6,902 nucleotides of DNA from a bacterium (GTDB taxonomy: Bacteria; JACRDZ01; JAJRWM01): positions 1 through 6,902 of the forward strand of contig JAJRWM010000077.1 of assembly GCA_024276815.1 (NCBI GenBank), given 5' to 3'. A program made the translations under genes and the position numbers. This document shows, one piece after another, positions 2,503-6,902 of this stretch (positions within the stretch are counted from its first letter, which is position 1; every line of letters begins with the position of its first letter). Under the pieces are notes generated by a model. It was not told where the DNA came from, ran no database searches, and saw only the letters and a list, made by a program, of their open reading frames with translations.

Positions 2503-3999
2503 TTGCCTTGGCTTATGCTGGGCTTGGTCTTGTCGGCGTCATTCGCTGTGCGGCTGGAGTTCTCCCCTGATTCCGTGCTTTATTTTGATATTGCGAGAAA
2601 TATCGCCGCTGGCGAAGGCTTTTCTTCCTATCATCTGGAGCTGGACTCCGCTTTTGTCCCGGAAAAGAGACTGCTTTGGCCGCCTCTCTATCCCCTGTTG
2701 CTGGCGTCAGGTATTAAGCTTGGCTTGAGCGCCTTGTGGAGCGCGCGCTTAATCCTGATCATTTCCTACCTGCTCTGTCTGCTGTGCGTCTACAAAATCG
2801 GTGAAATCCATTCCTCACCTTCCTTTGGCATCGTTTGTCTGGTTATGTGGCTGGTCATATCCTGTTTCAGCGAAGTCTGGCGGCATGTCTGGAGCGAGCC
2901 GCTTTTCTATCTGCTGGTGGGAGTCTTTTTCTTGCTCTTCAATACCGCGGTACGCTCATTATCGCGTTCGCTTTTTATCCTGCTGGGGATTGTCGCCGGT
3001 CTGGCCGTTATGTGCCGCTACCTGGGAGTATCGCTGAGCATCTCGGCCCTGGCCGGCCTGTTTTTTTTGCTGGCGGCCAATAATAACGAGGGCGGAAAAG
3101 GCACCACCTATCTGACCGGTATGTTCTGCGCTTTAATTCCCTTTATTATAATCGTCGGCCCCTGGTTTTACCGCAACTATTTACTGACCGGTCGGTTGAC
3201 CGGTATTGACCGGCCGGCTTCCGTCAGCGGACTGTTTACTAATATATCCCGCTTTTTACAAACAACCCTGACCGATATGATTCTGCCCCTGCTGGTTAGC
3301 GGCGGGCTTATCGCGTGGGCATACTTTAAAAGAGGAGAACGTTCCGGCCTGAAAAATCTTCGGGACCGAGAACCCGACGCCTTGATCCTGCTCTCGATTA
3401 TCTGGATAGCTGTTTATGCCCTGGTCTTGATTTATACCGCCAGCGTCTATTATTTTGACGCGATAAATTCCCGGCTGGTAAGCCCAATATATCTTGTACT
3501 CATGCCGTTAATTCTTATTGTGGGATATAAATATTATGAAAATATTGCCGGCGAAATAAAGCTTGACAATCTAATCCTGGGATTGATCGCCGTCTTGTTG
3601 TTGGGTTTTGCGGGCTATCAGACCAACCAGGGACTGGCCGGATTAAAGCTGGACAAAATGAAGATATATCTGCCGGCCGCCGTCTGGATAAAAGAGAATA
3701 CGCCGCCGGACTCGTTGTTTATCGGTTCCGAGTCCTGGTGGGTTCGCTTTAAGACGGAAAGGAGAATACTGGAACTGGGTTATCCTGAAAAGTTGCGGGA
3801 AATTCCGGCGAAAGTGGATAACTTTCTGCGAAAATTCGGGAAGCGGTTCAGTAAAACCTATCTGGTTTTTCTCAGGCCTGTTCCCCTTAAGGAAAAAAAT
3901 GTGATGCGGGGTTATAAAAGTCTGGGCTACCTGATTAAGCCACGCTACCTCGACCAATATTTCGCGGTTTATGAAATGACCGCCCAGGTTGTTAAATGA
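2503..3999 (+). CDS. GT-C fold membrane glycosyltransferase (GT39/PMT-like)
   Basis: Predicted polytopic inner-membrane enzyme of the GT-C class, which transfers sugars from polyprenyl-phosphate donors to lipid, glycan or protein acceptors on the outer face of the membrane. After a first hydrophobic helix (about 3-17) comes the loop with the acidic residue expected for catalysis (D23, in 'SPDSVLYFDIARN'). It is followed by WPPLYPLLLA (59-68), SEPLF (131-135), PWFYRN (220-225) and 'INSRLVSPIY' (321-330), all landmarks of PMT/ArnT-like families. About ten hydrophobic segments run to about residue 375. A soluble C-terminal part (about 385-498) begins 'AVWIKENTPPDSLF', as is common in these enzymes. 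Substrate and acceptor cannot be told. The start is doubtful: the TTG at 2503 has no good ribosome binding site, and an ATG at 2481 is out of frame (see findings). Neighbouring genes do not explain its role. Confidence 0.85.
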   Translation: MPWLMLGLVLSASFAVRLEFSPDSVLYFDIARNIAAGEGFSSYHLELDSAFVPEKRLLWPPLYPLLLASGIKLGLSALWSARLILIISYLLCLLCVYKIGEIHSSPSFGIVCLVMWLVISCFSEVWRHVWSEPLFYLLVGVFFLLFNTAVRSLSRSLFILLGIVAGLAVMCRYLGVSLSISALAGLFFLLAANNNEGGKGTTYLTGMFCALIPFIIIVGPWFYRNYLLTGRLTGIDRPASVSGLFTNISRFLQTTLTDMILPLLVSGGLIAWAYFKRGERSGLKNLRDREPDALILLSIIWIAVYALVLIYTASVYYFDAINSRLVSPIYLVLMPLILIVGYKYYENIAGEIKLDNLILGLIAVLLLGFAGYQTNQGLAGLKLDKMKIYLPAAVWIKENTPPDSLFIGSESWWVRFKTERRILELGYPEKLREIPAKVDNFLRKFGKRFSKTYLVFLRPVPLKEKNVMRGYKSLGYLIKPRYLDQYFAVYEMTAQVVK

Positions 4000-4170: not shown

Positions 4171-5343
4171 ATGGTGCGGAAAATAATTATCATAAAAGAC
4201 CAGGCGATCAACCAATGCTTTATCGGCTTGAACTTAAGTCGCCAATATGAAGTTAACTACGTTGACTCATGGGGCAAGGCAAAGGAACTGATGAAAAATC
4301 AGGCCCCGGATGGTTTGATCTTTAATTTGCCCGGCTCCGGTTTTACTGATCTTGCTGATATCCCCGCGCGGGTTTGTCTTTTCTGCGTTGTTTCACCCTC
4401 GAAAGAATTGCCGTTTATTCCGTCGGACACGCCCCCGATACACCTGATTCCTCTGCCTTTTAATTCTTTGGAGCTTCAGACCGCGATGCGGAGAGCTTTC
4501 AGCACAGACCTGCCCCCCCCCAAAATTACCGCGCCGCTGGTCTCTGAAAGTAAGATGGGCGAGGTGAAGGCTGAGAAGAAATCGAACCTGGTGTTGATGC
4601 CCGCTAAAATAAAGCAGGTGGTATCGCTGCCGTTTTCCCTGATTCACAACACGGTGCTGGATTTGGTCCACACCGTGAAAAATCCGCTTGTTTCCATCCA
4701 GACCTTTGCCCAGATGCTGCCTGAAAAAATCGATGATCTTGATTTCCGGACAAGCTTTTCCCGGTTTGTAACCAGCGAGATCAACGTTATCAATAATCGG
4801 CTGAACAATTATCTGGAGAAGGTCTCTCTGCCGGAGAGCAGCCCTGAAGACTTTGAGGTCGGCGATTTTCTCGAACTGATCAAAGAACAACTGGGGGCGA
4901 ACTATCCTGAGCTAAGGATTGTTTTTGAACCCGGTCTCCGCTATGATTTAAAAGGTAATTGTCAGAAACTGTGTGAGGCCGCCGGCCTGATCTGGTCAAT
5001 AATCCTGGAAGTTGTCAACGAGCCGTTGAGCCTCACCGTTAATTATGCCGCCGCGACTTGTGGGGCGGATGCTGAAGTGCGTGCCCAAAGCCTGCTGGAG
5101 CTTTATTTTACGCTAAAGTTTCAGCCGCAATATATCGATATGGAACTAGACTTCCTTTCCACGGCGCAACGGCCAAAAGGCGTTGAAATTCTCTACGCCT
5201 TGAGGTTAATCGAGAATATGGGCGGTAGTCTGAAAATCACCAAAGCCGAAGAAAATGCTTTTATCGTGAAAATCAGTCTGCCAGGTTCGCTGGTGACAGA
5301 GGAAGCGCCTGTTAAAGTTGCCGGTATCGAGGAGTATAAGTGA
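4171..5343 (+). CDS. Degenerate histidine-kinase-like protein (pseudo-receiver, DHp, pseudo-ATPase)
   Basis: Predicted soluble signalling protein; no membrane segment is visible. Residues 3-110 resemble a receiver, but the acidic pocket is eroded ('IIIIKDQ'), the phospho-acceptor position is Asn (N52) and the conserved Lys position is Leu (L95). A proline-containing linker (about 111-150) follows. The dimerisation/phosphotransfer region (about 160-218) matches HisKA wording, with H167 in 'VHTVKNPLVSIQTFAQMLPEK'. The acidic residue normally after the His is Thr (T168), while N171 is kept. Residues about 228-372 keep the outline of a HATPase_c fold ('NCQKLCEAAGLIWSIILEVVN', 'LIENMGGSLKI', 'FIVKISLPG'), but the N-box Asn and the glycine-rich G1 and G2 boxes are missing, so ATP binding looks lost. 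ATG at 4171 has AAGG at 4161-4164, six bases upstream. The stop overlaps the next gene's start, so the two are almost certainly one operon. A phosphotransferase, phosphatase or scaffold role for the neighbouring regulator is inference. Confidence 0.85.
   Translation: MVRKIIIIKDQAINQCFIGLNLSRQYEVNYVDSWGKAKELMKNQAPDGLIFNLPGSGFTDLADIPARVCLFCVVSPSKELPFIPSDTPPIHLIPLPFNSLELQTAMRRAFSTDLPPPKITAPLVSESKMGEVKAEKKSNLVLMPAKIKQVVSLPFSLIHNTVLDLVHTVKNPLVSIQTFAQMLPEKIDDLDFRTSFSRFVTSEINVINNRLNNYLEKVSLPESSPEDFEVGDFLELIKEQLGANYPELRIVFEPGLRYDLKGNCQKLCEAAGLIWSIILEVVNEPLSLTVNYAAATCGADAEVRAQSLLELYFTLKFQPQYIDMELDFLSTAQRPKGVEILYALRLIENMGGSLKITKAEENAFIVKISLPGSLVTEEAPVKVAGIEEYK
4513..4521 (+). repeat. C9 homopolymer inside the kinase-like gene
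   Basis: Nine consecutive C bases encode three prolines in the linker between the pseudo-receiver and the phosphotransfer region. Long poly-C runs slip during replication, and such a tract is unusual in DNA of this composition. A one-base change would cut the protein off before H167. Confidence 0.9.
5329..5334 (+). promoter_or_regulatory. Ribosome binding site that fixes the GTG start of the NtrC-family gene
   Basis: GAGGAG ends five nt before the GTG at 5340, whose last two bases are the first two of the TGA stop of the preceding gene. The site lies inside the preceding coding sequence, so the two genes should be translationally coupled. Confidence 0.75.
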
Positions 5344-6587
5344 AGAAAATACTGGTCATTGATGATGAAATCAATATTCATAACTCAATCAGAATGGTGC
5401 TCAAGGATCAATACCGGATTACCTGTGCCAGCAGTGGCAAGGAAGCTCTGGAACTGTTCGCCAACCAGCCGTTTGATTTGGCTTTAATGGATATTATCAT
5501 GCCGGATCAAAACGGCATGGATCTTCTGGCGCGGGTAAGACATGATTATCCCGGTTTGCCGGTAATCATGGTGACGGCGATAAAAACGGTGCGTACGGCC
5601 GTGGACGCTATTAAACTGGGCGCGGTGGATTACTTGACCAAGCCTTTCGATATTAAAGAGTTGAGTAACTGTATCCAGGTGGCCCTAAAAAACCAGGACG
5701 CTAAAACCGCGGGCGCCGCCGATAAACATGACAGTTCCAGCAGCCCGATTATTTATAAATCGGCGGCTATGACCAGGGTGCTGGACGCGGTCAAGATGGT
5801 CGCCGCTGAGGAGTGTGTTGTTTGTATTTGCGGGGAAAGCGGCACCGGCAAAGAATTGATCGCGCGGGAGCTGCACCGGCTCAGCAAGCGGAACAAACAC
5901 CCTTTTATCGCCGTTAATTGCGCCGCGATTCCCGATACCTTGATCGAAAACGAGCTTTTTGGCCATGAGAGGGGCGCCTATACCAACGCTCAGCGTTCGG
6001 CCCCGGGGAAAATTGATCTGGCTAACCAGGGGACGCTGTTTTTTGATGAAATCGGCGACCTGAGTTTGGAGGGGCAGGCAAAGCTGCTCAGGGTTATCCA
6101 GGATAAAACTTTTATGAGGGTAGGCGGGTTGGAGCAGATCCGCACCAACGCCCGTTTCCTTTTCGCGACCAACAAGGACCTGGAACTTGAAGTCAGCCGC
6201 GGCCAGTTCAGCCAGGATCTTTTCTACCGGATAAATGTTATCCCGCTACAATTGCCGACCCTCAGAGAGCGCCCCGATGATATCCGGGCCTTGCTCTCCT
6301 ATTACATGACTCAAACAGTTAAAGCTCAGAACAAGAAAGCGAAACGCTTTAGTGATGAAGCGCTCAATTTCCTGGTCGGGTATCACTGGCCCGGCAATGT
6401 CAGGGAATTGAAAAATATCGTGGAATACCTGGTTTCCTTAATTCCCAACGAACTGATTGATTGGACCGATTTACCTTTGAAAATCAGGGCTAACCAGAAA
6501 TTTGCTCCCTCCGCTCAAAACAATTTCTCCCTCCATGAAAGCGAAGCGCTTCTGCAAAAAGAGATGATCGTCAACGCTTTAAGGTAG
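5340..6587 (+). CDS. NtrC-family sigma54-dependent response regulator, cut short by an amber codon in the HTH
   Basis: Phosphorylation-controlled AAA+ activator that remodels sigma54-RNA polymerase at enhancer-dependent promoters. The receiver (1-118) is complete: D8/D9, phospho-acceptor D51, T79 and K101. The AAA+ domain has Walker A GESGTGKE (165-172), sigma54-contact loop GAYTNA (212-217; consensus GAFTGA), Walker B 'TLFFDEIGD' with D236/E237, and sensor II WPGNVREL (350-357). In the FRxDLxYR segment the first Arg is Ser (S291, FSQDLFYR) while R297 is kept; both positions are discussed as Arg-finger candidates in PspF/NtrC1. The C-terminus starts a Fis-type HTH ('KEMIVNALR') and stops at TAG, codon 416. 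The same frame then gives the rest of a normal HTH to 6698, for a full length of 452 codons, usual for the family. Translation starts at GTG with a strong binding site, coupled to the upstream kinase-like gene. If the stop is real, DNA binding should be lost while ATPase and receiver remain. Confidence 0.92.
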   Translation: MKKILVIDDEINIHNSIRMVLKDQYRITCASSGKEALELFANQPFDLALMDIIMPDQNGMDLLARVRHDYPGLPVIMVTAIKTVRTAVDAIKLGAVDYLTKPFDIKELSNCIQVALKNQDAKTAGAADKHDSSSSPIIYKSAAMTRVLDAVKMVAAEECVVCICGESGTGKELIARELHRLSKRNKHPFIAVNCAAIPDTLIENELFGHERGAYTNAQRSAPGKIDLANQGTLFFDEIGDLSLEGQAKLLRVIQDKTFMRVGGLEQIRTNARFLFATNKDLELEVSRGQFSQDLFYRINVIPLQLPTLRERPDDIRALLSYYMTQTVKAQNKKAKRFSDEALNFLVGYHWPGNVRELKNIVEYLVSLIPNELIDWTDLPLKIRANQKFAPSAQNNFSLHESEALLQKEMIVNALR

Positions 6588-6698
6588 ACGGATTACGTGC
6601 AGACAAAAGCGGCCGAGCTTTTGGGAACTACCCGCCGGGTGCTGAAATACCGTATGGATAAATATGGGATCGAAGCTAAAAGCGACCCGGAGAATTAA
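6588..6698 (+). pseudogene. In-frame continuation encoding the rest of the Fis-type HTH
   Basis: Immediately after the TAG, the same frame gives 36 residues before TAA (6696-6698). They begin 'TDYVQTKAAELLGTTRRV' and continue 'LKYRMDKYGIE', the standard turn and recognition helix of NtrC-family HTH domains. There is no other stop or shift, so coding constraint is either still present or only recently lost. A GTG at 6597, 13 nt after an AAGG, could in principle restart translation to give a 33-residue fragment. If TAG is read as sense, this is simply the end of the upstream CDS. Confidence 0.85.
6604..6623 (+). repeat. Inverted repeat 16 nt downstream of the in-frame amber codon
   Basis: CAAAAGC (6604-6610) pairs perfectly with GCTTTTG (6617-6623) around a six-base loop GGCCGA. 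The stem falls within the codons for the conserved QTKAAELLG stretch, so it may be a by-product of the protein sequence. Its distance from the TAG resembles that of stem-loops that promote stop-codon read-through. Confidence 0.5.
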
Positions 6699-6776: not shown

Positions 6777-6802
6777 CTCAAGCGGTACATCAAAGGCTTG
6801 AG
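6777..6802. repeat. 7-bp inverted repeat in the downstream non-coding region
   Basis: CTCAAGC (6777-6783) and GCTTGAG (6796-6802) form a perfect 7-bp stem with a 12-nt loop. It abuts the larger palindrome at 6802-6861 and may belong to the same intergenic element. No U tract follows it. Confidence 0.5.
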
Positions 6803-6861
6803 GGGATAGAACCTTGGAAACCCCTTTTTTCGAAAAAAAAGTAGGTTTCCAAACCTTCCCC
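6802..6861. repeat. Compound palindromic intergenic element
   Basis: GGGGA (6802-6806) pairs with TCCCC (6857-6861). TTGGAAACC (6814-6822) pairs perfectly with GGTTTCCAA (6844-6852). CTTTTTT (6824-6830) pairs with AAAAAAG (6835-6841), closing a CGAA tetraloop. The long hairpin looks like a dispersed intergenic repeat unit. It is followed by a run of A on the + strand, so on the - strand the hairpin is preceded, not followed, by T. It is therefore not a textbook intrinsic terminator, but could stall transcription or protect 3' ends after the two-component operon. Confidence 0.65.
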
Positions 6862-6902
6862 AAAAAACTTTAGATATTTGTCATACCGGCGTCCGAGGGA
6901 AC

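Follow-up and report, generated by a model that had tools for sequence, protein, structure and literature searches.

An in-frame TAG in an NtrC-type sigma-54 activator gene, probably a base-level error of a metagenome assembly

The gene of a sigma-54-dependent response regulator is interrupted by an in-frame TAG at position 6585 of the window (the whole stretch of DNA that we analyzed, 6,902 nucleotides), and this TAG is in our view probably an artefact, from a base-level error of the metagenome assembly or from a damaged template, with T most likely standing in place of G. Dozens of in-frame stops were observed in the same genome, nearly all of them at glutamate positions and some in the sole copies of essential genes, and a G-to-T error is therefore preferred over a recoding of the stop codon. 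The true regulator gene is probably full length.

Genome and sequence examined

The window corresponds to contig C243 of a draft assembly of 2.39 Mb (246 contigs, 91.4% complete), and the three genomes used for comparison (G001-G003) are related to it only at the phylum level. The contig ends share exactly 141 nt, which suggests a de Bruijn assembly of short reads with k=141. We surveyed 1.15 Mb of this genome for in-frame stops that have coding sequence before and after them; stops followed by a separate gene in the same frame were disregarded. The coding-score filter was relaxed for this survey; a version dropping the sites with a nearby start codon missed ClpB, PlsX and PrmC. The names given to the genes at internal-stop sites come from our reading of the sequences together with alignments. 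An interspersed repeat of about 122 nt, at 3769-3890 of locus L191 and at about 17 other places of the genome (18 matches in the sequence examined), is strongly folded (z -5.7) and may be a cause of contig breaks.

The regulator gene and its in-frame TAG

The features of the window needed here are the following:
4171..5343, + strand: gene 5' of the regulator, overlapping it by 4 nt (GTGA); known from its translation, with no Pfam match
5340..6587, + strand: sigma-54-dependent response regulator as written, 415 aa; Pfam domains Response_reg, Sigma54_activat and AAA_lid_14, without HTH
6585..6587, + strand: in-frame TAG, codon 416 of the regulator; mostly Lys, Glu or Gln in homologues
6588..6698, + strand: in-frame continuation of 36 codons and a TAA, completing a Fis-type HTH (HTH_8), with its coding score intact

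The regulator frame starts with GTG at 5340 and, when the TAG is read through, comprises 452 codons and terminates with the TAA at 6696-6698. Response_reg (97 bits) and Sigma54_activat (215 bits) were detected in the Pfam search, so that the receiver and the AAA+ domain of an NtrC-type protein are both present; the C-terminal Fis-type HTH is absent from the frame as written. In the read-through protein, HTH_8 was found at residues 405-442 (E 1.6e-11), and no HTH was found by Pfam in the truncated 415-aa form. In the coding score, the 35 codons 3' of the TAG (0.45) did no worse than the upstream gene (0.31). These results bear out the initial annotation, which had described 36 codons restoring the HTH up to a TAA and, for an unread TAG, an activator deprived of its DNA-binding part. 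The position and the frame that it gave for the TAG also stand, but not its description as a single event, since many TAA and TAG stops were observed genome-wide. As had been pointed out as well, none of the other three genes of the window ends with TAG (TAA, TGA and TGA).

At the column aligned to codon 416, the codon tally over 47 homologous genes gave Lys in 19/47, Glu in 6 and Gln in 4, in agreement with the earlier expectation of Lys, Gln or Glu at this place. Lys is encoded in the two closest homologues (AAA and AAG) and Ala in the third closest, so that the ancestral codon need not be GAG.

The gene overlapping the regulator on its 5' side has, by eye, a histidine-kinase-like H-box, HTVKNPL (LVHTVKNPLVSI), in its translation and looks like a divergent sensor kinase. 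On the 3' side, a 65-nt repeat that forms a hairpin lies at positions 6808-6872 of the window; it is interspersed in the genome and was matched 11 times in the 1.15 Mb surveyed. A tRNA-Arg(tcg) called by ARAGORN at 6791-6871 was rejected, the stretch being this repeated hairpin element. The Rfam search of the window gave no match, and the RF00005 search of the whole genome listed none in the contig of the window.

In-frame stops across the genome

Dozens of in-frame stops were observed inside conserved genes in the 1.15 Mb surveyed, TAA being as frequent as TAG. Wherever the relatives agree on the residue, this residue is Glu (13/13 sites, TAA:TAG 7:6): CysS (HH*NEIAQSE), ClpB (LLD*IEKAH), PlsX, PrmC (at its second stop), GltD, UvrB, a nitropropane-dioxygenase-like gene, PtsI, a YgiQ-like radical SAM gene, DAHP synthase, an HD-GYP gene, a HAMP gene and AHCY. 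The more variable sites of PyrH, RplA, GlmU, IlvB and GlnA are compatible with Glu; those of S1 (Leu in relatives) and PilB (Arg/Lys) do not clearly fit it and weigh against the G-to-T reading. Many internal TAA or TAG codons at Glu positions were noted in eight loci (L254, L269, L137, L255, L245, L159, L191 and L178), which lie on contigs C149, C14, C18, C226, C94, C40, C72 and C59. An intact second copy of CysS, GltD, PlsX, PyrH, RplA, GlmU or PrmC was not found in the genome, and the matched genes of the three same-phylum genomes contain essentially none of these internal stops. True stops in this number of indispensable single-copy genes would require read-through in living cells; the sequence must therefore be in error, unless UAR is read as Glu.

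This observation also bears on a genuine recent nonsense mutation of the regulator, which would have left a pseudogene or a truncated allele whose HTH-less activator may act from solution or be inactive. No essential role of the regulator is known, several paralogues are present in the genome, and the undecayed HTH 3' of the TAG fits a recent event. However, the same stops occur in sole essential copies, where they cannot all be real mutations, and a general error process therefore already covers the TAG at 6585. We consider such a mutation unlikely.

The share of Glu among the internal stops was then compared with what base changes would produce. If all single-base routes to a stop were equal, 18% of new stops would fall at Glu codons, and 13/13 would have a probability of 2e-10. 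If only symmetric G:C-to-T:A changes were at work, the expected share would rise to 57%, with the remaining new stops at Tyr, Ser, Cys and Gly codons, and the observed spectrum is still tighter than this symmetric model predicts (P about 7e-4 for 13/13). An alignment of in-frame UAR with one amino acid is what a sense reassignment predicts, and Glu was found at 13/13 sites; G>T errors also predict Glu, less strictly.

Stop decoding machinery and terminators

A pyrrolysine insertion or an amber-specific suppression at UAG had been among the options of the initial annotation, and the only feature in its favor is an in-frame TAG followed by an intact continuation. No PylS was found over the cut-off in this genome (the best match reached 18.5 bits against a cut-off of 178, in an assembly 91% complete), nor any match to the trimethylamine methyltransferase MttB, and no CUA or UUA anticodon is present among the tRNAs found. 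Since several ordinary tRNAs are also missing from the assembly, this result does not prove that a suppressor tRNA is lacking. RF1 is intact and an RF2-like second match is present. In addition, the regulator gene is not a methylamine methyltransferase, and TAA is affected as much as TAG. Amber-specific recoding and pyrrolysine were thus rejected on account of the equally affected TAA and of the PylS, MttB and CUA tRNA that were not found, and we attribute to them a negligible probability.

UAA, UAG and UGA all end genes in this genome. A codon reassigned to sense is expected to be depleted or absent as a terminator, and TAG closes about 24% and TAA about 44% of the coding ORFs. No excess of backup in-frame stops was observed after TAA or TAG terminators. 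It had been anticipated that a genome devoid of an amber-decoding tRNA and commonly using TAG as a terminator would bring the site down to an error or a plain mutation, and both features were observed in this 91%-complete assembly.

The alternative in which UAA and UAG, besides serving as terminators, are sporadically decoded as Glu inside conserved genes by a tRNA recognizing UAR draws its strength from the resolved stops, all 13 at Glu with both TAA and TAG, where symmetric errors predict 57%. Against it, RF1 is intact and the RF2-like match is present, TAA and TAG together end about two thirds of the ORFs without extra backup stops, and neither a UUA nor a CUA anticodon was found, though some tRNAs are missing. 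Moreover, TAR would represent only about 0.1% of the Glu codons, and the contig overlaps described below carry G/T changes other than TAR. We therefore give this dual use only a slim chance.

Contig overlaps as a record of base errors

Three near-identical contig overlaps are longer than 141 nt (343, 377 and 358 bp, 1,078 bp together). They differ at 8 sites, and all of these differences are G/T or C/A (8/8), so that the change class expected from an artefact is found in redundant assembled sequence. The differences that could be oriented (V/F, V/F, P/H, G/C and one silent) are mostly G/T when read on the sense strand (4 to 1). As these changes are missense or silent, the process is not confined to TAR or to stop codons. 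The overlap differences are a signature, within the assembly itself, of base errors of the G:C/T:A type, and a change from GAR to TAR at Glu codons belongs to the same class as G>T. Together with the genome-wide pattern of stops, this favors a base-call or consensus error, the former having been listed among the first options for the TAG.

The same class of base change in the overlaps would also fit G:C-to-T:A mutations that are real, in a population whose DNA is damaged, dormant or relic, the damage having then occurred in nature and not in the library. No MutY was found over the cut-off in this genome (G000), which could favor such damage; however, the three same-phylum genomes (G001-G003) are also without MutY over the cut-off and yet without internal stops. 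For this same reason, a mutator arising from a recent loss of MutY was set aside as not informative. Stops in essential sole-copy genes would, in addition, not last in living cells, and we regard natural template damage as quite improbable.

Discussion

From the sequences compared here, we infer that the TAG at 6585 belongs to the genome-wide class of internal stops and that the process behind this class is artefactual. In the preferred explanation, a base-level error, a G-to-T substitution would have made TAG out of a GAG (Glu) codon at 6585, through a process that may be 8-oxoguanine-like. The organism's own gene would then encode a normal full-length 452-aa NtrC-type sigma-54 activator, which would work with the overlapping upstream sensor gene.

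If the stops are artefacts, G>T errors in this assembly simulate truncated essential genes, and even a recoding of stop codons to Glu, and other assemblies of the sample may be affected as well. If, on the other hand, the Glu-only pattern is true, it would be the first known dual-use UAR code in a bacterium; we know of no dual-use UAR stop codons in bacteria.

Among known systems, the regulator shares with NtrC-type sigma-54 response regulators (bacterial enhancer-binding proteins) the receiver, the AAA+ Sigma54_activat domain, the AAA lid and, on read-through, the HTH, but differs from them in that its HTH is cut by the TAG at codon 416 as written. With pyrrolysine-using bacteria (PMC8318568) it has an in-frame UAG in common, whereas no PylS, tRNA-Pyl or methylamine methyltransferase was found in the assembly. 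In the nuclear code of Blastocrithidia, UAR encodes Glu, with UAA also used as a stop, and dedicated cognate tRNAs are present (PMC12153298). The likeness lies in the in-frame UAA and UAG at Glu positions; here, in contrast, no cognate tRNAs were found, TAR accounts for about 0.1% of Glu, and UAA, UAG and UGA all terminate. Finally, oxidised guanine, copied during library handling, is a source of artefactual G>T (PMC12390751). This artefact was described in human exome data, whereas our reading comes from a bacterial assembly alone, and the two have in common the G>T and C>A class of changes and the false variants that result.
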